Assembly: GCA_017883485.1 (NCBI GenBank)
Contig: JADGNM010000029.1
Location: 1-12,797 of the forward strand
Reading direction: 5' to 3'
DNA from: Methanosarcina sp.
GTDB taxonomy: Archaea; Halobacteriota; Methanosarcinia; Methanosarcinales; Methanosarcinaceae
DNA length: 12,797 nucleotides
A program made the position numbers and the translations under genes. Shown in pieces: positions 1,297 through 12,797 of this stretch. The first letter of the stretch is position 1, and each line of letters begins with the position of its first letter. The notes beneath the pieces were generated by a model. The model saw only the letters and a list, made by a program, of their open reading frames with translations, did not search any database and was not told the DNA's origin.

Positions 1297-2081
1297 GCTT
1301 CATACCCTTTGTCCGGACTAATTCTGGTTCCTATGGATTCCCCATTTAAGAACCTGTGTATGTTATCCGCTTTTCCTGCATTGAATATATATGAAGTAAT
1401 ACAAGATGTTTTGCTAAGTTCCAGAAGTTCCTGTACCTTCCCGAGCATGCCGCCCGTAACATCAGTGCTTCCTGAGCCTCCTATGTAATGCTTGAAATTT
1501 TCAAATTTTTCAGGAGTAATCTCAGGCACAGGTTTTCCATACATATCAAGCACTCCATCTTCTGCCGACCCCAGTCCGAGCCTTGTAATTCCAAGCTTCT
1601 TTGCAAGGTAGGGAACTATCTGGTCTCCGGAGAGCACGCATGCCCCGAGTTCGAGGTCCATAACAACGTCTCCGTGAAGCACAGGGACAAAACCATTCTT
1701 GAGCATGAGCTTTATGTTGTCTAGATACATGCTCTCTATCCGCCCTTTCCTGCAAACCGTACAACCAAAAGGATGTACAGCTACAGCCCGGACTCCGAAA
1801 CGGTTAAGGGCATCTACCACTCTTGAGGCAAGTTTCTTGACGGATTCATGGGTTATAATTACTCCCTCAGGATCAAAACTTGTATCAAGCCTGTATTTCC
1901 TGGCGTAGGTATGCCCGAAGGAGCCTGCACCGTGCACAATAATTATTTTTCCCCGAAATTCGGAAACTTCCCGCGCAATCCTCAGGAGAGCAGCCTCTTT
2001 TACAACCCCTTCATCTGCGCCTTTGTCAGTAATAACGCTGCCTCCAAGTTTCAGGATAACTGGTTCGGTTGAGACCATCAT
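1293..2081 (-). CDS. ipk: Isopentenyl phosphate kinase
   Basis: ATP-dependent phosphorylation of isopentenyl phosphate to isopentenyl diphosphate, the characteristic step of the archaeal modified mevalonate pathway. It is a 262-residue amino-acid-kinase fold protein. Visible motifs are the N-terminal ILKLGGSVITDK (9-20) with nucleotide-binding Lys11 and glycines, and VHGAGSFGH (49-57) whose last His corresponds to the catalytic His of characterised archaeal IPKs. Further on are VLHGDVV (134-140) and LSGDQIVPYLAKKLG. The GSFGH motif separates IPK from other amino-acid kinases such as glutamate-5-kinase or UMP kinase. The stop overlaps the fni start by 4 bp and the start lies 25 bp after the mvk stop, which supports an mvk-ipk-fni transcription unit. 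There is a second Met at residue 2, so the start is uncertain by one codon. Confidence 0.96.
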   Translation of the reverse strand: MMVSTEPVILKLGGSVITDKGADEGVVKEAALLRIAREVSEFRGKIIIVHGAGSFGHTYARKYRLDTSFDPEGVIITHESVKKLASRVVDALNRFGVRAVAVHPFGCTVCRKGRIESMYLDNIKLMLKNGFVPVLHGDVVMDLELGACVLSGDQIVPYLAKKLGITRLGLGSAEDGVLDMYGKPVPEITPEKFENFKHYIGGSGSTDVTGGMLGKVQELLELSKTSCITSYIFNAGKADNIHRFLNGESIGTRISPDKGYEA

Positions 2082-2106
2082 TCCGTATCACTTAACGCTT
2101 ATTTAA

Positions 2107-3018
2107 CTAACTGTTAGTCAACTTCAGTCCCTGTTCAGTTGGTTTTGTAATGATCACCCTGCTGTCTGCCTCTGACATCGCTTCGGCAATCTGCGTACAC
2201 CTATCAGTTGCAGTAAGTGCTACCATGCATCCTCCACCGCCAGCGCCTGTGATCTTTGCTCCGAAGGCCCCAGCTTTCCTGGCAGAGTAAATTAATCGGG
2301 AAAGCTCAAGAATATTTACACCAAGAGCATCCAGAAGGCCCTGATTTACATTCATGAGCCTGCCAACGGAAGTATAATCGCCTGCCATGACAAGGGATTC
2401 TCCTATTTTAGATATTCTGCCAATAGAAGCCATAAGAGGCTCAATCAGTTCGGGATAACTTTCACGGAGCTTCCTGACATTTGCTACAAGTTCCTTTGTA
2501 GAAGAGAAAATTCCTGTGTCCCCGATCACAATTCCGCAGTCGGGTATCCTCAGTTTCCTCTTTTCAGGGATGGTAACGACCCCACCGAATGTGGACACAT
2601 AGGTATCCGTGGGGCTTGCCGCTCCCTGGACCCGGATCTCGATTTCATGCCCGGTTTTTGCAATCTCCTCTAAAGAAAGACCGCAGCCAAAAAGCTCATT
2701 GAGAGCACCTATACATGCAATAGTAACAGCAGCAGATGACCCGAGTCCTGAGCCCACCGGAATATCGGAATCGACTTCCAGGAAAACACCTTTTATCGGT
2801 GTGATTTTTTTCATTTTCTCAATAACTGAGGAGATATAGGGATGTTTTTCAAAATCAATTCCAGTCATGCCAATTTGAGAATGGATTATTATTGAATCGT
2901 TAAGTTCTGCCCGCACCCGCGTTCTTAACTCAACCGCACATGCTATTGCGGTTTCCCCGTAGACAACCGCGTGTTCTCCGAAAAGATAAATTTTTCCGGG
3001 TGCAGAGCACGAAATCAT
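2107..3018 (-). CDS. mvk: Mevalonate kinase (GHMP kinase family)
   Basis: Phosphorylates (R)-mevalonate to mevalonate 5-phosphate with ATP. It has 303 residues, typical for archaeal mevalonate kinase. All three GHMP motifs are visible: PGKIYLFGEHAVVYG (7-21), the ATP-binding PVGSGLGSSAAVT (87-99), and the C-terminal KITGAGGGGCMVAL (255-268). The acidic catalytic residue is expected at Asp138 in the ASPTDTYVSTFGG segment (134-146), preceded by a conserved Glu-rich helix. GEHAVVYG and the SPTD motif favour mevalonate kinase over galactokinase, homoserine kinase or phosphomevalonate kinase. The ATG follows a modest GGAA site. The 123-bp upstream spacer carries a possible TATA box and a triplicated 13-bp repeat, so mvk may start its own transcript. 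It is known that the Methanosarcina mazei enzyme resists feedback inhibition by downstream isoprenoids; whether that holds here is inference. Confidence 0.96.
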   Translation of the reverse strand: MISCSAPGKIYLFGEHAVVYGETAIACAVELRTRVRAELNDSIIIHSQIGMTGIDFEKHPYISSVIEKMKKITPIKGVFLEVDSDIPVGSGLGSSAAVTIACIGALNELFGCGLSLEEIAKTGHEIEIRVQGAASPTDTYVSTFGGVVTIPEKRKLRIPDCGIVIGDTGIFSSTKELVANVRKLRESYPELIEPLMASIGRISKIGESLVMAGDYTSVGRLMNVNQGLLDALGVNILELSRLIYSARKAGAFGAKITGAGGGGCMVALTATDRCTQIAEAMSEADSRVIITKPTEQGLKLTNS

Positions 3019-3039
3019 ACTATTCCTCTGAAGTTCCAG

Positions 3040-3078
3040 GTTTAGTTGAAAAGTTTAGTTTGAAAGTTTAGTTGGAGT
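3040..3078. repeat. Three tandem 13-bp repeats upstream of mvk
   Basis: Units GTTTAGTTGAAAA (3040-3052), GTTTAGTTTGAAA (3053-3065) and GTTTAGTTGGAGT (3066-3078), each sharing the GTTTAGTT core. They lie 22-60 bp upstream of the mvk ATG, between a candidate TATA box and the ribosome site, so they would fall in the 5' leader of an mvk transcript. The repeats are seen directly; any regulatory role is speculation. Confidence 0.75.
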
Positions 3079-3107
3079 GCTTAAAGCAGCTACCGATTCC
3101 GACTGAT

Positions 3108-3115
3108 TATTTAAA
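3108..3115 (-). promoter_or_regulatory. Candidate TATA box for the mvk-ipk-fni unit
   Basis: On the minus strand the sequence reads TTTAAATA inside GCAAATTTAAATAATC, close to the archaeal TATA consensus. It lies in the only sizeable spacer between MEMO and mvk. Initiation about 25 bp downstream would give a leader of roughly 65 nt that includes the 13-bp repeats. Promoter assignment is by sequence resemblance only. Confidence 0.35.
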
Positions 3116-3141
3116 TTTGCAAGCTGATCCACAATATTCTC

Positions 3142-3939
3142 TTACTCCACAATTATTGCGGCATATCCCACAACTGCGTTCAGATCTCCGGAAACATCCC
3201 CACTGTTTGAATAGTTGAGAAGAGTAGCGTGATTTCCACCCAGCTTTTTGGAAGACGTAAGCATTGCAGCAATTGGCCCGTAGCCGCATATAGACGCATT
3301 CCTACGGTAGAGCCGGTCATACATTCCCGGAACATCGAGATTCAGTATAGAATCAATGACTTCATTATCTGTTTCCTTTGCAAGCTTTGCAGGCTGGTAG
3401 TGAGTAAAATCACTGGATGCGATGAAGACCACTCTTTTTCGGCTTTCGGAAACAAGGTTGGCAATAATGTTTCCTATCTCAACTGCGGTTTCTTCATCCT
3501 GCATACCCATACAGATAGGAAGGATTTTGAAATCCCCATCGAAGCGATATTGAAGAAAAGGAAGCTGAACTTCGATAGAGTGTTCGTATTTGTGACCAAG
3601 TTCATCCACGTCTACAATGCTCCCTAAAAACCTATCAACAAGTTCGACATCAACCTCGACAGTTCCCAGGGGAGTTTTCCACGTGTCTCTGGATACCGAC
3701 ACAGGTGAGCCGTATCCTGTATGGTTGGGACCTAAAAGCACATAGGTATCGGCTTCGGGGAGAGTTGCATAGGCATGCGCGGCCACTTTTCCGGAATAGA
3801 CATACCCGGCATGCGGGCATACTGCCCCGATGACATCTCGCTCCCGGATCTCCAGACCTTCAAAACATCGCTTGAGTTCTTTCTCCAGATTTTCAGGACG
3901 CAGGGGATAAAACTGCCCTGCAACTGCTGGCTGTCTCAT
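3142..3939 (-). CDS. MEMO1 family protein
   Basis: A 265-residue protein of the MEMO/AmmeMemoRadiSam-type family, structurally related to metal-dependent extradiol dioxygenases. The family is widespread in archaea, but its archaeal function is not settled. It begins with the family hallmark MRQPAVAGQFYP (1-12). Metal-site residues are in place: His43 in CPHAGYVYSG (41-50), His73 in LGPNHTG (69-75) and Cys218 in SICGYGPI (216-223). Further conserved blocks are YEHSIEVQLPFLQ (118-130) and SSDFTHY (175-181). The start is supported by the hallmark N-terminus and by a GGGTGAT site six bases before the ATG. It lies between rps2 and mvk, a neighbourhood common in euryarchaea. A well-formed TATA box indicates that it can be transcribed independently of rps2. 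The name reflects family membership, not a demonstrated reaction. Confidence 0.93.
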   Translation of the reverse strand: MRQPAVAGQFYPLRPENLEKELKRCFEGLEIRERDVIGAVCPHAGYVYSGKVAAHAYATLPEADTYVLLGPNHTGYGSPVSVSRDTWKTPLGTVEVDVELVDRFLGSIVDVDELGHKYEHSIEVQLPFLQYRFDGDFKILPICMGMQDEETAVEIGNIIANLVSESRKRVVFIASSDFTHYQPAKLAKETDNEVIDSILNLDVPGMYDRLYRRNASICGYGPIAAMLTSSKKLGGNHATLLNYSNSGDVSGDLNAVVGYAAIIVE

Positions 3940-3970
3940 TTACAATCACCCATAATAAGATATGGATCTT

Positions 3971-3980
3971 TTTTATATAT
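3971..3980 (-). promoter_or_regulatory. TATA box upstream of the MEMO gene
   Basis: The minus strand reads ATATATAAAA within a 71-bp gap between rps2 and the MEMO ATG. Initiation about 25 bp downstream falls near 3950, giving a leader of about 10 nt that still contains the GGGTGAT ribosome site. This is one of the best TATA matches in the window. Confidence 0.5.
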
Positions 3981-4010
3981 CCTTGCAGTATGCAGGACTG
4001 CCCTTCGGGA

Positions 4011-4778
<768 letters not shown>

Positions 4779-4840
4779 TCATAATAGAATCAATAATAAG
4801 ATATAATCATGTCTGAAAAATACATCTCAAATGTTTTCAA

Positions 4841-5020
4841 TCAACTTTTACGTTTGACCGTAATTGGAATAACTCCGGCCTTCAACTCTTCAATAGCGAT
4901 ATAGAGAGGATCCAGCCGCCCGTCATCTTCAACAAGGACAGGAGCCCCCATTGCAATTTGCAATGATCTTGCACCTACAATCCGCGCACGCTCGAACCGA
5001 GTATACTTTTCCTTGACCAA
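4841..5020 (-). CDS. rpoK: DNA-directed RNA polymerase subunit Rpo6 (RpoK)
   Basis: A 59-residue subunit of archaeal RNA polymerase, homologous to eukaryotic RPB6 and bacterial omega, involved in enzyme assembly and stability. The translated sequence has the family signature [20 protein letters not shown] (6-25), followed by APVLVEDDG and [17 protein letters not shown] (37-53), ending in basic TVKRKS. The frame is open back to a TAG at 5057-5059 but contains no ATG. The likely start is TTG at 5018-5020, because a strong GGTGAT site (5024-5029) lies three bases before it and the resulting length fits the family. The gene lies 111 bp downstream of tRNA-Pro and 71 bp upstream of rps2. An A/T-rich stretch near 5080-5092 could be its promoter. 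It is easy to miss because of its size and TTG start. Confidence 0.9.
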
Positions 5021-5131
5021 CTGATCACCCTGAAACTCAAAAACGCTCCGATGAATCTAAAAATTGAGAAGCATGATAGATTTAATTTAGTTCATACATA
5101 CCTGAAAACCAGTACCCTGAAAATGGGGAAA

Positions 5132-5206
5132 TGGGACCGCTGAGATTCGAACTCAGGTTCCGGCGTCCCGAACGCCGAAGGATGGACCAGGCTACCCTAC
5201 GATCCC
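5132..5206 (-). tRNA. tRNA-Pro (anticodon CGG)
   Basis: Read on the minus strand, the 75-nt gene has a 7-bp acceptor stem (GGGATCG with CGGTCCC, one T-G pair) and a D arm with GGGT/ATCC. The anticodon stem is CGGCG/CGCCG around the loop TTCGGGA, and the T arm is CTGAG-TTCGAAT-CTCAG. The loop places CGG at 34-36 (plus-strand 5168-5170) with U33 and G37, so it reads proline codon CCG. The discriminator base is A; CCA is not encoded and must be added after transcription. No intron is visible. The 5' end directly abuts the rpoN stop codon with no spacer, so the tRNA is probably processed out of the ribosomal protein/RNA polymerase transcript. Confidence 0.93.
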
Positions 5207-5395
5207 TTACTGGTACGGCGAAAGCACATCAACAAGTTCGACATGGCTTAAGATCATTCTACGGCAGCAGTAGCGGGTGATCCCAAGATCATCCAGCACT
5301 ACGGCAGCGTCTTCGCCTTCATTGACACGTCTTTTGTACTCATCCCAATAGTTGGAGATTACTTTTCCACATGAGAAACATCGGACTGGGATCAT
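5207..5395 (-). CDS. rpoN: DNA-directed RNA polymerase subunit Rpo10 (RpoN)
   Basis: A 62-residue zinc-binding subunit of archaeal RNA polymerase, equivalent to eukaryotic RPB10, part of the Rpo3/Rpo10/Rpo11/Rpo12 assembly platform. It starts with the family hallmark [13 protein letters not shown] (1-13) and contains the C-x2-C (Cys6, Cys9) and RYCCRRM (Cys43, Cys44) zinc ligands, with [14 protein letters not shown] typical of the family. The frame continues upstream to another possible Met 16 codons earlier. I chose the internal ATG at 5395 because it gives the exact family N-terminus, lies just after the rps9 stop, and has an AGGTAAG sequence overlapping that stop as ribosome site. The stop codon is immediately followed by the tRNA-Pro gene. 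Confidence 0.96.
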
Positions 5396-5399
5396 AGTC

Positions 5400-5810
<411 letters not shown>

Positions 5811-5817
5811 TCACCCT

Positions 5818-6240
5818 TTAAAATTTTGAACCCATTTTCTGGCTCACTTCACCAAGCTCGATATATTTGTTAGAACTCAGAAGCCTCATATCGGCATCTT
5901 CAATGGTGATTAATTCAGCGCCCTTGAGTTCATAGGGGACACCAACATAGACTTTGAGCCTGGACATTGCATCCTTGCCTCTTGCTCTCTTATAGGGCAG
6001 CATACCACGAATAGTCCTCTTCAGAATTCGGTCCGGACGCTTCGGGAAATAAGGTCCGAACTCCGTAGCCCCTCTCTCCCGGGTTTCCCGGTATTCTTTA
6101 AGGGTGGTTGCCCTTGAACCAGATATCACGGCTTTTTCAGCATTTACAATATGTATTTTCTCGTCTCCTGAAAGCAGCTGTTTTGCAACCGTACTTGCAA
6201 GACGCCCCAAAATAAGCCCTTTTGCATCGATAACCGTCAT
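5818..6240 (-). CDS. rpl13: Large-subunit ribosomal protein uL13
   Basis: Component of the 50S subunit. The 140-residue protein shows the L13 signatures [13 protein letters not shown] (4-16) followed by [17 protein letters not shown] (31-41), and the central [20 protein letters not shown] stretch (78-97), then VYVGVPYEL. Its start lies 10 bp downstream of the rpl18e stop, with GGTG as ribosome site partly overlapping that stop region. Length and architecture are ordinary for an archaeal L13 and I see no anomaly. Confidence 0.97.
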
Positions 6241-6250
6241 TTTCTACACC

Positions 6251-6661
<411 letters not shown>

Positions 6662-6668
6662 TTACTCA

Positions 6669-6690
6669 CGCGAAAAAATTCCTTATCGCG
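6669..6690. repeat. Inverted repeat CGCGA-N12-TCGCG upstream of rpl18e
   Basis: Perfect 5-bp arms separated by 12 A/T-rich bases, located 38-59 bp upstream of the rpl18e TTG start and downstream of a TTTAAA box (6723-6728). Its position would suit an operator or a leader hairpin. Arms this short can occur by chance, so any function is speculative. Confidence 0.3.
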
Positions 6691-7239
6691 TTCGAACATC
6701 GCTGTAATTGCCTCTCCCAGACTTTAAACTCGGAAACGGCAGATTAAAAATTAAGCGATTAGTCGGAGTAGTATCATGTGAATAACATTTCTAGTACATA
6801 AAGATTATGTGCACAATAGTTCCTATTCACTAGAATTCCAAATGATAAAATTTTTATTTGTTTCCCATTCACTCGTACCTTCAAATGTTCCTGAATTAAA
6901 GTTGTGCTGGCACATATGCCTAAAAATAACAAACATGTGTTATATTTAGGGGAAGTATGCTCTGTATGAAATTTATTGAGGATTCACTTATTAGAGAAAA
7001 CGGGTAGTTTTGAACGAGTTATCCCTGTTTTTAACCCTGTTTTAAGAAGTGTCTACAATTAGAAACTTAACTTTAGAAGCAAATTTAAGAGAGCTGAAAA
7101 TGCATTGGGAAAAAGTCTCATTTTTTATAATATTAGTGAATTATAATCCGTGGGGAATGATCAATGTCAGGAGAGCGATTAATATCGTTTTGAGTTAGTG
7201 TCCGGTCTGCAGCAGGTTACAAATGAACACTAGATCTCT

Positions 7240-7412
7240 TTGGAATGGCAGCAAGATGAAGACTGACGGATAGTCGAGAGCAAAATGAAGAAAGCCGCCT
7301 GATTGCCTGGGTCGCGCTCCCCTTGACGTTCAGTAGCTACTTAAGGGATCCAGAGGCGCAGATTCATTGGCTGCGAATGCTCTTGACGGCTATGATCAAA
7401 ATACGGATCTAG
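7240..7412 (+). pseudogene. Possible decayed coding remnant, unidentified
   Basis: A stop-free frame runs from 7260 to a TAG at 7410-7412 (50 codons). Its predicted peptide is protein-like and contains SREQNEESRLIAWVALP (5-21) and LRDPEAQIHWLRMLL (28-42). It has no usable start codon or ribosome site. The sequence just upstream reads LEWQQDED in another frame before a stop, as expected if a frameshift had broken a longer gene. The segment is less AT-rich than its surroundings. The complementary strand is also open for 39 codons, so the coding interpretation is not certain. I do not recognise the family. Confidence 0.25.
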
Positions 7413-7490
7413 AAACACAGTAACCAAATTTCTGTTAATTGAGGAACACTGGGCTTGGCCCAAAATAATGAAACAAGTAGATCTGAATTT

Positions 7491-7496
7491 GGAGGG
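7491..7496 (+). promoter_or_regulatory. Ribosome binding site deciding the decarboxylase start
   Basis: GGAGGG lies seven bases before the ATG at 7504, a strong match to the archaeal anti-SD. The earlier in-frame ATG at 7468 has no comparable site. Confidence 0.75.
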
Positions 7497-7503
7497 TATT
7501 ATT

Positions 7504-9135
7504 ATGCCTGAGACAGTTATTCAATATCTTCTGAACCGATTAAAGCAGCTAGGAATGAATGATATTTTCGGTGTGCCAGGAGACTATGCGTTTCCTATCA
7601 ACGATGCCATATGTGATGATAAGGAGTTGCGCTGGATAGGCTGCTGCAATGAGCTGAATGCCGCTTATGCTGCCGACGGTTATGCCCGTATCAAAGGTAT
7701 GTCAGTACTGTCTACTACCTTTGGGGTAGGCGAATTATCCGCAATGTGCGGGATAGCAGGCTCTTACGCAGAGCACAATATAGTATTCCATATAGTTGGA
7801 ATGCCGCAAATGTCGGTCCAAGAGAAACATGCCATTGTACATCATACGCTTGGCAACGGAGAGTTCGACCAATTTATGACCATGGCTGCCCCAGTGGTAT
7901 GTGCGAAAACAATGCTTACCCCGGAGAACTGCGTTAATGAAGTCGAGCGTGTTATCGCGGCAGCTCTGGAGCAGCACCGGCCGGTATACATCGCCATACC
8001 TCATGACTATGTGCATAAAGAGATTTCATCCTCCATGGCACCGGCAAACGTGCTTTCAAAAAGCGATCCTGAGACGCTAGAGGAAGTGGTCTCGACAATT
8101 GTAGATAAGCTGTCGAATGCAAAGAAAGCCTGCATTATGCCAGGCATTCTTGTTGAACGTTTTGGGCTCAAGGAATTGACCACGGCCGCTGTTAATGCTT
8201 CGGGTTTGCCTTATGTGACCCTGGAATCGGATAAATCAGTGCTTGACGAGACTAATCCCTCATATCTGGGGTTATACAGCGGACAGCTTATCAATCCTGA
8301 AATTAGGGAGTTCGTGGAATCCTGCGATTGTATACTTGCTATAGGCACTATTCTGTCTGATTATAACACTGGTATGTTCACGGCAAAACTTGACAAATCC
8401 AGGATCATCAATATCATGCCCTCTGAGGTCCAGATAGGGGATGCTGACTATCTCCATATAAAAATGTCTGATGTGCTCGGGGAACTGGTGAAAAGACTCC
8501 ATAAGCGTATTGATGTCGGGGGACCTGTGGCTAAGCATCCTACAATGCCAAAGGTAGATGCCGAAAACCCTATAACTGCTGATTATTTGTACGCGAGGTG
8601 CGCGAAATTTTTTAAGCCCGATGACATAATTATAGCCGATTCAAGCACATCCTTTTTTGGCTTACTGCCAGTATTTTTACCGAAAGGGGTTAAGTTCGAG
8701 AGCCAGATGCTCTGGGGGGCGATAGGCTGGGCTACTCCGGCTTCCTTTGGAGCCTCACTGGCTGCCCCGAATCGGCGAGTGGTTCTTATTACGGGGGAAG
8801 GGTCTCACCAGATGACCGTTCAGGAGATCGGCCAGTTTTATCGCTATGGTCTAAAGCCTATTATTTTCGTGCTGAATAATCACGGCTATCTAATAGAAAG
8901 GATGCTTTCTAAGAAATTGGATTATTGTTACAATGAACTGGCAGAATGGCAATATCATAAGTTACCAGAAGTACTTGGCTGCAATGACTGGGTAATGAGG
9001 AAGACCACTACTTGCGGCAATCTGGATAAAGTTTTGGTAAAACTAGAAAATACTAAAACAGGAGCATATATCGAGATAGTCATGCCAAAATTGTCGGCAC
9101 CACCTCTTGTGGAAACAATTCACCAAAGAATATAA
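7504..9135 (+). CDS. ThDP-dependent 2-oxo acid decarboxylase (pyruvate/indolepyruvate decarboxylase family)
   Basis: Predicted cytosolic, non-oxidative decarboxylation of a 2-oxo acid (pyruvate, indolepyruvate, phenylpyruvate or branched-chain) to an aldehyde. It has 543 residues, near the 545-570 usual for the family. With this start, PDC numbering falls into place: Asp27 in GVPGDY, Glu50 in CNELNAAYAADGYAR (48-62), His113/His114 in IVHHTLGNG (111-119). The C-terminal ThDP domain has GEGSHQ (431-436), 24 residues, then NNHGYLIE (458-465) with the catalytic Glu465. The metal ligand Asp of the GDG motif is Glu432 here. The HH pair and YxIE motif argue against acetolactate synthase or benzoylformate decarboxylase. 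No alcohol or aldehyde dehydrogenase is adjacent to indicate the fate of the product. Being alone on the plus strand among housekeeping genes, it may be horizontally acquired. Substrate cannot be read from sequence. Confidence 0.9.
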   Translation: MPETVIQYLLNRLKQLGMNDIFGVPGDYAFPINDAICDDKELRWIGCCNELNAAYAADGYARIKGMSVLSTTFGVGELSAMCGIAGSYAEHNIVFHIVGMPQMSVQEKHAIVHHTLGNGEFDQFMTMAAPVVCAKTMLTPENCVNEVERVIAAALEQHRPVYIAIPHDYVHKEISSSMAPANVLSKSDPETLEEVVSTIVDKLSNAKKACIMPGILVERFGLKELTTAAVNASGLPYVTLESDKSVLDETNPSYLGLYSGQLINPEIREFVESCDCILAIGTILSDYNTGMFTAKLDKSRIINIMPSEVQIGDADYLHIKMSDVLGELVKRLHKRIDVGGPVAKHPTMPKVDAENPITADYLYARCAKFFKPDDIIIADSSTSFFGLLPVFLPKGVKFESQMLWGAIGWATPASFGASLAAPNRRVVLITGEGSHQMTVQEIGQFYRYGLKPIIFVLNNHGYLIERMLSKKLDYCYNELAEWQYHKLPEVLGCNDWVMRKTTTCGNLDKVLVKLENTKTGAYIEIVMPKLSAPPLVETIHQRI

Positions 9136-9192: not shown

Positions 9193-9699
9193 TCAAAATG
9201 AGATGCCGAGCACGGACCTGGAAACCTTTCCAAAGATCGTGTCGATATCGCACCCCAATTTCCTCGCCACAAATAGGGCCACGATCCGGATGTCCACAAG
9301 GTAAAAAAGCCTCTCCTGCATGGAGTTAATTTCAGAGACAAGTTTTTGTCTGTTTACTCCGGTATCTGCGGAAATAAATTCCAGGACTTGCTCAAAGGAG
9401 ATCTCTTCCTTGAGAGAAGGGTATTTTTCTCCGAAACTCTCATGGCTTTCAAGAAAATTCTCCGGCGGCTTGAAGGCATGGGGAAGTCGGATGCTCTCCA
9501 CATCAAAGGCAGGAATAAGAGCACCGTGCTTAAGGTTGAGCAGGCCGACTTCGAGGGCACGATCCTTTACCTTTGAGGCAATTTTCGGGGAAAACCATTT
9601 GAGGTCAAAAGCCAGGGAAAACTCAAAATCCTTTTCCGAAAGGGAAACTGCAAGATTCTTTTTAAAAGGAGTCGAAACTACAAGTTTAAGTTCTTCCAT
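9193..9699 (-). CDS. DUF2240 family protein
   Basis: A 168-residue archaeal protein of unknown function, without signal peptide or membrane segment. It resembles the archaea-restricted DUF2240 family. Matching blocks are an N-terminal VVSTPFKKNL (7-16), then SEKDFEFSLAFDLKWFSP (21-38), a short helix region (KVKDRALEVGLL), LIPAFDVESIRLPHAFKPP (61-79), and a C-terminal helical half with INSMQERL (125-132) and ALFVARKLGCD (141-151). The alternation of short helices and hairpins in the first half suggests a winged-helix-like fold, but that is inference. The ATG has a GAGGGT-type ribosome site a few bases upstream. Immediately upstream are tandem 15-bp repeats. It lies downstream of serA in the same direction, 184 bp away and separated by a hairpin, so it is probably transcribed separately. 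Confidence 0.8.
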   Translation of the reverse strand: MEELKLVVSTPFKKNLAVSLSEKDFEFSLAFDLKWFSPKIASKVKDRALEVGLLNLKHGALIPAFDVESIRLPHAFKPPENFLESHESFGEKYPSLKEEISFEQVLEFISADTGVNRQKLVSEINSMQERLFYLVDIRIVALFVARKLGCDIDTIFGKVSRSVLGISF

Positions 9700-9883: not shown

Positions 9884-11455
9884 TTATATTTTCACGAGTT
9901 TGGCACTGAGTATTCCTGGAACATTCCGTAATTCTTCAAGGATAGGAGCAGGAACTTCGGAATCCACATTCAGGACCATCATAGTAGTGCTTCCGATTTC
10001 TGACCTTCCAACCTGCATGCCTGAGATATTGATGTTGTTTTTACCAAGAACCACGCAGCACGGCCCGATTACATTCGGCTTGTTGATGTGTTTGGCAAAA
10101 ATCATATATCCTGCAGGGAAGATATCCAGTTTGTCCCCGTCAACTGAAACGATTTTTGGTTCATCCCCGACGACAGTTCCGGCAATCAGCTTTGTCATTC
10201 CTCCGCCAATAAGCTTGATACTGACAGTTGAAGCGTATTCCTCGGAAGACTCGGATTTGCTTTCTACGACTGCGATCTGTCTGGACTTTGCAAGAGTCGG
10301 AGCATTGACATAATTTACTGCGGAACCAAGAGCCATTTCAAGCAGCCCTTTGAGAGCGGAAACCGTAAGGGGCCGCGTGTCTTTTCCGGAAATCTCGCCG
10401 TTGTACCCGATTTCTACCTTTTCGTAATTTCCTTCTACAAGCTGCCCTGCAATTTTTCCCATCATTTCAGCAAGCCTGATGTAAGGAGCAAGGACTGCCA
10501 TAGCTTCCGGCTTTACAGACGGGATATTGATTGCATTCTTTGCAAGCCCGCCTGTGAGTACGGACACTATTTCGTTGGCGATCTCAATTGCCACGTTGAC
10601 CTGAGCTTCCTGTGTGGAGGCTCCAAGATGAGGAGTTACTATGACGTTGTCAAAATCAAGGAGAGGACTGATAAAAGGAGGCTCCTCAACAAATACATCT
10701 AATGCTGCACCGCCTATTTTTCCACTTGCAAGAGCTTTTGCCAGGGCTTCTTCGCTTATAATGCCGCCGCGAGCACAATTGATAATTTTGACGCTGGGTT
10801 TCATCAGGGCAAACTGCTCATCATCCAGAATATTCCTGGTTTCTTTAATAAGGGGAGTGTGTACTGTAATATAGTCAGCTGCTTTTGCGATTTCGTTTAC
10901 TGTCGCAAGCTTTACCCCCAGTTCGGTAGCCCTCTTTTCGGAGATAAACGGATCGTATCCCATAAGCTTCATTTCAAGTCCTGACGCCCTTTTTGCGACT
11001 TCCGAACCAATTCTTCCAAGACCTATGATTCCCAGAATCTTGCCTTTGACCTCAACGCCCATGAATTTGTTGCGCTTCCATTCCCTGGCTTTCAGGGAGG
11101 TGTTTGCCTGGGGTATATTCCTGGACATTGACATCATCATGGCAATAGTGTGCTCTGCTGCAGAAATCATGTTGCCTTCGGGAGAGTTAGTCACGATGAT
11201 GCCCTTCTTGGTAGCTGCATCGACATCAACATTGTCAACTCCGACTCCAGCTCTCCCGATAACCTTCAGCTTGTCGGCAGCTTCGATAATTTTCTGTGTG
11301 ACCTGGATACCGCTTCGGATTATAAGGGCATCGTAGTCTTTGATTTTTTTCACCAGTTCGTCCTCGGAAAGCCCGGTGGAAATGTCAACAGTAAAGTGCT
11401 CTTTTAAAATCTCCAAGCCTTCGTTGGAGAGTGGATCACTGACCAATACTTTCAT
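9884..11455 (-). CDS. serA: D-3-phosphoglycerate dehydrogenase
   Basis: Oxidises 3-phosphoglycerate to 3-phosphohydroxypyruvate with NAD, the first step of serine synthesis. The 523-residue length marks the long form, with catalytic, intervening and C-terminal ACT domains. Visible features are RAGVGVDNVD (68-77), the Rossmann motif GLGRIG (145-150) with Asp168 downstream, and NCARGG (226-231) with catalytic Arg229. VEEPP (256-260) carries Glu258 and TPHLGAS (274-280) carries His276. The ACT domain covers about residues 450-523 (IGPCCVVLGKNNINISGMQV), where serine feedback is expected in this family. I chose the ATG at 11455 because it gives the canonical MKVLVSDPLS and follows GGAG by 8 bases; a longer frame to 11485 adds ten residues with no support. 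It is divergent from the DUF1059 gene. Confidence 0.97.
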   Translation of the reverse strand: MKVLVSDPLSNEGLEILKEHFTVDISTGLSEDELVKKIKDYDALIIRSGIQVTQKIIEAADKLKVIGRAGVGVDNVDVDAATKKGIIVTNSPEGNMISAAEHTIAMMMSMSRNIPQANTSLKAREWKRNKFMGVEVKGKILGIIGLGRIGSEVAKRASGLEMKLMGYDPFISEKRATELGVKLATVNEIAKAADYITVHTPLIKETRNILDDEQFALMKPSVKIINCARGGIISEEALAKALASGKIGGAALDVFVEEPPFISPLLDFDNVIVTPHLGASTQEAQVNVAIEIANEIVSVLTGGLAKNAINIPSVKPEAMAVLAPYIRLAEMMGKIAGQLVEGNYEKVEIGYNGEISGKDTRPLTVSALKGLLEMALGSAVNYVNAPTLAKSRQIAVVESKSESSEEYASTVSIKLIGGGMTKLIAGTVVGDEPKIVSVDGDKLDIFPAGYMIFAKHINKPNVIGPCCVVLGKNNINISGMQVGRSEIGSTTMMVLNVDSEVPAPILEELRNVPGILSAKLVKI

Positions 11456-11692
11456 GTCGATTTCTCCAATAAACACGATAAACATGATTCATTAAATTTT
11501 GACAGAGACATAAATCAACTTACTCACACTTAAGCATTATCACACATAAAGTAATCCCTGTTAACAAGCCAAAAAGAGGGGATTTTATGCCTTATTCGCA
11601 GTTAATCAAAAATTGAGCAAGGAAAATAACTTCGCACCGAAAAAAGATGTTCTAGAAGCTTAGTTTTAGATCTTATCCATTGTTTTGTTTTC

Positions 11693-11700: not shown

Positions 11701-11744
11701 TCATTTTGACTAATTCTACAGTTCGTTTACATCAAGGGATTTTT

Positions 11745-11954
11745 ATGAAAATAATTAAGTGCCGCGATCTGGGATTTAAGTGTGATTTTATGGCTGCCGG
11801 TAGTAACCAGGATGAGGTTAAGAAGACAATACTTGACCATATAGAAAAAGAGCATAAAGATGAACTTGATAAAATATCTGAAGATGATATAACCCACCTG
11901 AAGCACAGAGTATCAACTCTTCTAGGACGAAGCTGCGGCTGTGGTGCCTTATAA
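11745..11954 (+). CDS. DUF1059 family small protein, probable metal binding
   Basis: A 69-residue cytosolic protein resembling the DUF1059 family of small proteins found in archaea and bacteria, function unknown. It begins MKIIKCRDLGFKCDF (1-15), with Cys6 and Cys13, then DHIEKEH (31-37) with His32 and His37, giving a C-x6-C-x18-H-x4-H arrangement that resembles a zinc site. The C-terminus SCGCGAL (63-69) adds Cys64 and Cys66. The ATG at 11745 is preceded by AAGGGAT and matches the family start. A longer frame from 11685 would place hydrophobic, unrelated residues in front and overlap the TATA box. It is divergent from serA and convergent with the TspO gene, with only 30 bp between the two stops. 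Metal binding is inferred from residue spacing. Confidence 0.8.
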   Translation: MKIIKCRDLGFKCDFMAAGSNQDEVKKTILDHIEKEHKDELDKISEDDITHLKHRVSTLLGRSCGCGAL

Positions 11955-11984: not shown

Positions 11985-12467
11985 TCACATGTTCAGAGTC
12001 CATAAGTAGTAGTTAAGCAGAGCTGCGAAACTGACCCATAATATATAAGGTATTAACAGGTACGAAGCTGTTTTTGAGATATTTCTAAATTTAATTATTG
12101 TCAGGAAAATAGCAAGCCAAAGAAAGATGATTTCAACAAAACCATAGTAAGGAGACTTTAACCCAAAAAACAGAAAGGACCACAGAGAATTAAGGACTAA
12201 CTGTATACCGAAAATAATCAATCCAATTTTTACTTCCCGATCTTGCAGCCCTTTGTCCCAAACAATGTATAAAGAGATTCCCATAAGCGTATAGAGCAAA
12301 GTCCAGACAGGAAAAAAGATCCATGAGGGAGGGTTGAAAACCGGCTTTTCAAGTAGAGAATACCAATTCTCAAGAGACGATGCCGTAAATACTGAACCAA
12401 CGGCTCCTGCAAACTGGCAGAGCAGCACCGAGGCTAGAAGTTTAAAGTAGTTTATCTTCTGGGACAT
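11985..12467 (-). CDS. tspO: TspO/MBR family membrane protein
   Basis: A 160-residue integral membrane protein of the TspO/translocator (peripheral benzodiazepine receptor) family, associated elsewhere with tetrapyrrole or oxidative-stress signalling; its role in methanogens is not established. Five hydrophobic segments are visible, about 8-28, 46-67, 80-102, 106-126 and 134-157. Family motifs are AGAVGSVFT (20-28), KPVFNPPSW (41-49), PVWTLLYTLMG (53-63), LNSLWSFLFFGL (92-103) and PYILWVSFAALLN (140-152). An upstream in-frame GTG at 12491 would add eight residues. I prefer the ATG at 12467 because the TATA box at 12504-12511 predicts initiation near 12483, downstream of that GTG, and because the resulting length fits the family. 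The abundance of Trp and aromatic residues is typical. Confidence 0.93.
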   Translation of the reverse strand: MSQKINYFKLLASVLLCQFAGAVGSVFTASSLENWYSLLEKPVFNPPSWIFFPVWTLLYTLMGISLYIVWDKGLQDREVKIGLIIFGIQLVLNSLWSFLFFGLKSPYYGFVEIIFLWLAIFLTIIKFRNISKTASYLLIPYILWVSFAALLNYYLWTLNM

Positions 12468-12797
12468 ATCGATATTTAGAGTATTTCTCACTCCAATAAT
12501 ATTAATTTATAGGATAAAAAAAGTTCTTATATCCAATTTCCGAAATTTATGCTTTTTTACTTATGTATCCGTTAAAAGGGGTGATATTTGAAGCTTATTC
12601 GGGAATATATCCCCTCCAGGTGGGTTTTATATACAGGATATTAGAAATGTAGTGAGAATTGGGGATGGATTTGAAATATTTTTATAATTTTTGCAATCTA
12701 TTTTACATTTCGACCCCCATGCAAAAATAGAACATAATTTATTTTTTTGATACAATATATATTTTCACTTCATGTTCAACTTTTATATTATGATACA
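12468..12797. other. AT-rich non-coding end of the window
   Basis: No gene of useful length is seen on either strand. The stretch contains the tspO promoter at its left edge, an SD-like AGGGGTGAT (12577-12585), a palindrome GGGA-ATATA-TCCC (12601-12613), TATA-like boxes TTTTATATAC (12625-12634) and AATATATATTTT near 12755, and the inverted copy of the GGGGGTCGAAATGTAAA motif (12702-12718). These could belong to the promoter and leader of a plus-strand gene beyond the right edge. Confidence 0.45.
12504..12511 (-). promoter_or_regulatory. TATA box for tspO
   Basis: The minus strand reads TATAAATT, a good archaeal TATA match. Initiation about 25 bp downstream falls near 12483, giving a leader of roughly 16 nt to the ATG at 12467. 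This placement favours that ATG over the GTG at 12491. Confidence 0.45.

Follow-up and report, generated by a model that had tools for sequence, protein, structure and literature searches.

A PDC-type 2-oxo acid decarboxylase gene in the genus Methanosarcina, probably acquired from outside the archaea

Introduction

Among enzymes with solved structures, the indolepyruvate decarboxylase of Enterobacter cloacae (EcIPDC, PDB 1ovm) is the closest relative by sequence (E 6.9e-118, 38% identity) of the Methanosarcina decarboxylase described here, followed by a related Enterobacter enzyme, yeast PDC, and KivD/KdcA. EcIPDC and the Methanosarcina protein are both three-domain ThDP decarboxylases with a common Asp/Glu/His-His/Glu set, but the latter has GEG in place of GDG, Phe384 in place of Ala387, Tyr287 in place of Thr290, and Ser380 in place of Gln383. 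KdcA/KivD and yeast Pdc1 (2vbg, 6vgs, 9axw) share 35-40% identity with it over the whole length, and the catalytic residues are shared with the yeast enzyme, whereas the GEG motif sets our protein apart from this group and yeast Pdc1 has an Ala at the 387 position, where we find Phe. The PDCs of Zymomonas, Gluconacetobacter, and Gluconobacter likewise have the same catalytic residues, and the Gluconobacter homologue also resembles the Methanosarcina protein in an aromatic residue at the 387 position (Trp) and in the Ile before the Glu of the YxIE motif. However, identity to these PDCs is only about 29-30%, and the Gluconobacter protein lies on a separate branch of the protein tree. Finally, there is a shell of GEG-type proteins from Planctomycetota, Bradyrhizobium, Proteus, and the fungus Dissophora (53-58% identity), which mostly share Glu in the GxG motif (101/122), Ile464 (115/122), and Leu468 (121/122), but have Ser or Ala (114/122) at the position of Phe384.

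A 2013 review notes that archaeal PDC homologues had not been described up to then (PMC4030962), and our search of the open-licence PubMed Central literature found, by title, no study of a PDC-type enzyme of Methanosarcina. Public records name the Methanosarcina proteins indolepyruvate, pyruvate, or alpha-keto acid decarboxylase.

Results

The window, i.e., the whole stretch of 12,797 nucleotides that was analysed, contains an intact open reading frame of 543 codons followed by a stop codon.

7504-9135, plus strand: ThDP-dependent 2-oxo acid decarboxylase (PDC/IPDC/KdcA type), 543 aa, assigned by ORF, domain, family-model, and structure matches
7491-7495, plus strand: putative GGAGG Shine-Dalgarno-like site, 8 nt 5' of the ATG at 7504, from reading of the sequence

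An in-frame ATG is also present upstream, at 7468, but the start at 7504 is favoured because of the GGAGG site and because of the starts of related proteins. Judged by eye, the upstream regions of 18 decarboxylase genes had no common element beyond the start codon when aligned, and no Rfam family matched anywhere in the window at the gathering thresholds. The N-terminal (PYR), middle, and C-terminal (PP) ThDP-enzyme domains of Pfam (PF02776, PF00205, and PF02775) all scored above their cut-offs and together span the whole length of the protein. An AlphaFold model, generated from an alignment of 53 sequences, reached a pLDDT of 88.3 and a pTM of 0.91, and its top fold match in the PDB was 1ovm (TM 0.90). 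With dN/dS values of 0.09-0.20 in eight Methanosarcina gene pairs, the gene is evidently maintained under purifying selection.

The residues that carry catalysis and cofactor binding in characterised enzymes of the family were located by alignment and motif reading.

7582-7584, plus strand: codon of Asp27 (catalytic), aligned with EcIPDC D29
7651-7653, plus strand: codon of Glu50 (ThDP activation), aligned with EcIPDC E52
7840-7845, plus strand: codons of His113-His114 (HH motif), aligned with EcIPDC H115/H116
8797-8799, plus strand: codon of Glu432, which replaces the Mg2+-binding Asp of the GDG motif, by motif reading and alignment
8878-8880, plus strand: codon of Asn459, the second Asn of the NN end of the ThDP motif, by motif reading
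8893-8898, plus strand: codons of Ile464-Glu465 (YxIE motif), with Glu465 aligned with EcIPDC E468

A first-pass annotation of the gene had claimed a complete PDC-type catalytic set, and our analysis bears this out, as Asp27, Glu50, His113, His114, and Glu465 are all found at these positions, in line with the Pfam domains and the 1ovm match. That reading did not mention the GEG motif: relative to the consensus GDGX24-27N, the protein retains the NN end of the ThDP/Mg2+ motif but has Glu432 in place of the Mg2+-binding Asp. The exchange raises the possibility that cofactor binding is crippled and that the protein has little activity, which we regard as extremely improbable, as Glu is present at this position in 79 of 81 Methanosarcina-type proteins, in all 15 proteins of a sister set, and in most of the bacterial and fungal shell proteins, and as dN/dS is well under 1. 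In addition, a superfamily survey gives Glu in place of the GDG Asp for 7% of the superfamily (PMC3534367). Since Glu predominates in all three sets, GEG, a known minority variant, is unlikely to be damage. The Methanosarcina-type set was defined by identity and place in the tree and consisted of P0002-P0079, with at least 74% identity to the window protein, and of P0080, P0082, and P0095, which the tree placed inside; fragments shorter than about 490 aa were dropped.

Carboligation is a side reaction of PDC-type enzymes, and acetolactate synthases are distantly related to them. It is thus conceivable that the enzyme mainly forms carbon-carbon bonds, with acyloins or acetolactate as products, rather than setting free an aldehyde. 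We consider this highly improbable, since all 81 Methanosarcina-type proteins have the HH motif and Glu465, by which decarboxylases are recognised, and since acetolactate synthase models scored far below their cut-offs (best 114 bits against 738, among the best 25 models). Several genomes of the genus also have other distant relatives with 25-27% identity, which are presumably the acetolactate synthases.

With respect to substrate specificity, two pocket positions deserve attention.

8362-8364, plus strand: codon of Tyr287 at the EcIPDC Thr290 position (pocket), by alignment, variable among Methanosarcina-type proteins
8653-8655, plus strand: codon of Phe384 at the EcIPDC Ala387 position (pocket), by alignment

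The Ala387 position is reported to influence specificity in the EcIPDC family (PMC9045302). In the 81 Methanosarcina-type proteins it is occupied by Phe (78), Tyr (2), or Val (1), compared with Thr in 14 of the 15 sister proteins and the predominant Ser or Ala of the shell. The Phe is thus particular to the genus and hints at a narrower pocket. The column probably corresponds to Trp392 of ZmPDC in standard numbering, as suggested by the Trp of the Gluconobacter protein in our alignment; W392 is named in the superfamily survey (PMC3534367). Phe384 and Ile464 recall the bulky residue at position 392 and the Ile before the Glu of YxIE in pyruvate decarboxylases, but this Ile is common to several enzyme types. 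Moreover, Klebsiella IpdC is reported to have lost activity on pyruvate as well as on 2-ketoisovalerate upon the exchanges A387L and A387I (PMC9063327), and a bulky residue at this position alone therefore does not make a pyruvate enzyme.

Many public records use the name indolepyruvate decarboxylase, and the best NCBIfam model is indeed the IPDC equivalog TIGR03393, so that decarboxylation of aromatic 2-oxo acids (indolepyruvate or phenylpyruvate) to indole- or phenylacetaldehyde has to be considered. A Proteus mirabilis protein with 53% identity also points in this direction, as it may be the PmKDC of strain JN458 that has reportedly been used for 2-phenylethanol (PMC9045302, PMC7214760). 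However, TIGR03393 scored only 485.4 bits against a cut-off of 946, and because this is about half of the cut-off, the name is not supported. Ala387 of EcIPDC is furthermore replaced by Phe in the window protein and by Ser in the Proteus protein, and the A387Q exchange in KDC4427 is reported to have cut phenylpyruvate and indolepyruvate activity by 40% (PMC9045302). An aromatic substrate thus appears unlikely, and the indole-acetaldehyde type of product that had been suggested for this gene is not borne out by the model score and the Phe at the Ala387 position. Short or branched 2-oxo acids are the likelier substrates; we say only likelier because the A387L and A387I data and the variable Thr290 position cut against a simple reading of the pocket.

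Orthologues with 75-100% identity were found in 19 of 30 Methanosarcina genomes, the copy of one genome (G009) being split over two contigs, whereas none of six genomes of other genera of the family carries one (0/6). Records with the gene include those named M. barkeri, M. horonobensis, M. flavescens, and M. thermophila. In 23 further genomes of the order, we found one protein with 35% identity and, in six genomes, weaker matches with 25-29%. At the level of the phylum (392 genomes, window protein as query), 20 genomes had a match at E 1e-60 or better, namely 11 Methanosarcina genomes and nine others with 31-34% identity, and no match outside Methanosarcina exceeded 34% at this threshold. A single scan of genome contigs with the window protein returned three Methanosarcina loci and one clostridial protein with 24% identity. 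The search of other Methanosarcina genomes that had been proposed for this gene thus showed that it is not peculiar to the window genome, but that it is restricted to one genus of the family; it is an old, patchy gene of Methanosarcina that is already annotated publicly.

The closest proteins from outside the Methanosarcina-type set are the 15 sister proteins (P0081, P0083-P0094, P0096, and P0097; 65-72% identity), which are mostly about 550 aa long; several of them are slightly extended at the C-terminus. A tree of 76 proteins was built by a quick search with SH-aLRT supports, and the tool flagged long branches among its more distant sequences. In this tree, Methanosarcina and sister proteins formed one clade with a support of 100. 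This clade belonged to a 59-row clade (support 100) that also held proteins from Planctomycetota, Bradyrhizobium, a deltaproteobacterial MAG, Proteus, metagenomes, and Dissophora, while EcIPDC and the yeast and Gluconobacter proteins were outside. Ten other archaeal PDC-like proteins were found elsewhere in the tree, together with a Synechocystis protein (support 92). Neither this tree nor the genome searches showed a deep archaeal clade with a wide presence in Methanosarcinales, which would have spoken against a transfer; the gene is widespread in one genus only and stands apart from these ten proteins. With bacterial proteins and a single fungal one as neighbours, and with the ten other archaeal proteins at a distance, the tree gives good support to the view that the genus acquired the gene from outside the archaea. 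The earlier suggestion of an acquisition from bacteria therefore stands with regard to an origin outside the archaea, for which the tree and the insertion site speak, whereas a bacterial donor is likely only.

Two further proteins in this part of the tree may be mentioned. P0115 of Dissophora ornata, a fungus of the Mortierellales, is 57% identical and lies among bacterial proteins, which may reflect a bacterium-to-fungus transfer or contamination. When viral contigs were searched with an alignment that included the sister proteins, one protein with 52% identity was found on a 9.3 kb IMG/VR contig (L101), which is perhaps a misclassified cellular contig.

The genomic surroundings of the gene were compared among the genomes.

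6251-6631, minus strand: ribosomal protein L18e gene (rpl18e), conserved left neighbour of the insertion, by Pfam and locus comparison
6632-7503, no strand: divergent gap of 872 nt between the L18e and decarboxylase genes, without Rfam match
9193-9699, minus strand: DUF2240 gene, conserved right neighbour, which adjoins the L18e gene where the decarboxylase is absent, by Pfam and locus comparison
9884-11485, minus strand: serA (phosphoglycerate dehydrogenase), conserved neighbour, by family model and locus comparison

In 17 of the 19 carriers, the decarboxylase gene is located beside rpl18e; one copy (G010) is found elsewhere and another (G017) was not placed. Of the 17 loci that were read over a longer stretch, 16 have DUF2240 and serA on the far side. 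Seven of the eight non-carriers with at least 90% completeness have an empty site, with DUF2240 adjoining L18e across gaps of about 179-188 nt, and in the eighth (G004), neither the decarboxylase nor DUF2240 was present within 1.5 kb. The same empty site was seen in five of six outgroup genera (gaps of 147-272 nt), the sixth having no DUF2240 in the stretch read. At the empty site of G007 (L086, around 8241-8799), DUF2240 is in two pieces, i.e., there is a frameshift or a sequencing error. Adjacent genes are housekeeping genes on the opposite strand, and none of them is linked as an operon partner. At the alternative site of G010, the larger flanking ORFs encode a leucine carboxyl methyltransferase-type protein and a TPR protein, again with no link seen.

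The occupied and empty sites point to a single insertion between rpl18e and the DUF2240 gene. In a tree of ten neighbouring proteins, the basal genome (G025) lacks the decarboxylase and both main branches contain it, and five changes of presence are needed. These changes fit one gain with four losses and equally one insertion that spread within the genus. A tree in which the 15 decarboxylase genes outside the G002/G008/G014 group form one clade was rejected (p-AU 0.0004), and the window gene (G000) groups with barkeri-type genes in the decarboxylase tree, whereas the neighbouring genes pair G000 with G012. Unless the root is wrong, these two results imply that inheritance was not by vertical descent alone, and there was probably some exchange within the genus in addition to clean losses.

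Several enzyme families were considered as partners of the decarboxylase. Aldehyde dehydrogenases (PF00171) were set aside, since they occur in 30 of 30 genomes and the single class examined on the tree showed no variation in step with the decarboxylase. Zinc alcohol dehydrogenases (PF08240) had matches in 22 of the 30. An iron alcohol dehydrogenase, with 84-100% identity among near-full-length matches in Methanosarcina genomes, has L-threonine dehydrogenase and lactaldehyde reductase as its nearest NCBIfam models, none of which was above cut-off. By a Pfam-based count, it is present in 17 of 19 carriers and in 4 of 11 non-carriers (Fisher p 0.004, a test that ignores kinship); a strict count in genomes with at least 90% completeness gave 12/15 and 2/8 (p 0.023, likewise ignoring kinship). 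When the damaged copies of G000, G012, and G019 were scored as present, a likelihood test that was written by hand and run on the tree yielded p 0.015. Independent pairs never disagreed (a mean of 3.1 agreed and 0.9 did not differ), but were too few to reach 0.05, and these values refer to a family that was picked after two families had been inspected. Exceptions are the carriers G015 and G021, which lack the dehydrogenase, and the non-carriers G007 and G029, which retain it. The gene contains stops in G012, and of two copies in the genome of the window, one is truncated and the other contains stops. Broken copies with stops or missing ends are located at G018:C192:108-819, G012:C65:465-1343, and G000:C286:2596-3422. 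The partial co-occurrence is thus no more than suggestive of a route from 2-oxo acid via aldehyde to alcohol.

Of the 22 Methanosarcina genomes with a match to the iron alcohol dehydrogenase, 16 have a glycogen-debranching gene no more than 5.2 kb away from it; if only near-full-length matches are counted, the figure is 16 of 18. Glycogen-debranching genes were found in 30 of 30 Methanosarcina genomes, and one publication states that Methanosarcinaceae store and use glycogen (PMC9723798). Because of this gene pair, its partial tracking of the decarboxylase, and the use of glycogen, one can envisage a true alcoholic fermentation in many Methanosarcina, in which starving or methanogenesis-blocked cells convert stored glycogen to pyruvate, which the decarboxylase turns into acetaldehyde and the iron alcohol dehydrogenase into ethanol, as an electron outlet that bypasses ferredoxin, with Phe384 as a re-tuning to pyruvate after entry. 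We consider this complete scheme distinctly improbable. The conserved pair itself (GDE_N/GDE_C domains in the debranching protein) can be seen in L102 (G014, 1881-6723), L103, L106-L108, and L110-L113.

Discussion

We regard it as probable that the gene, which would be of non-archaeal origin and have entered by one insertion, specifies a functional ThDP/Mg2+-dependent 2-oxo acid decarboxylase that prefers short or branched substrates to indolepyruvate and produces an aldehyde that is subsequently reduced. By analogy with the characterised family, Glu50 would activate ThDP, and Asp27, His113/His114, and Glu465 would handle the proton steps, so that the 2-oxo acid would be split into CO2 and aldehyde. 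An alcohol dehydrogenase would probably then reduce the aldehyde. The gene most likely came into Methanosarcina from a bacterial-type lineage, and its patchiness would be due to clean losses, with a probable contribution of exchange within the genus.

As cultured Methanosarcina species carry a complete PDC-type gene, the question can be tested there. Activity on pyruvate would provide a methanogen with a ferredoxin-free, non-oxidative outlet for pyruvate, which would bear on models of carbon and electron flow and on the engineering of alcohols from C1 substrates. An inactive enzyme, or one that acts on aromatic substrates, would instead call for the correction or confirmation of a widely copied annotation.

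With regard to expression, Table 2 of a co-culture study lists M. barkeri MSBRM_0475 (ipdC) as 2.563-fold upregulated (PMC12195604). Other genes in the same passage of this table share exactly the value of 2.563, so that low read counts are likely, and we set this upregulation aside as evidence of expression.

Two further genes beyond serA in the window may be noted. A TspO/MBR-family membrane protein (PF03073, 170 bits) is encoded in this methanogen at 11985-12491 on the minus strand, and a small DUF1059 protein of 70 aa at 11742-11954 on the plus strand.
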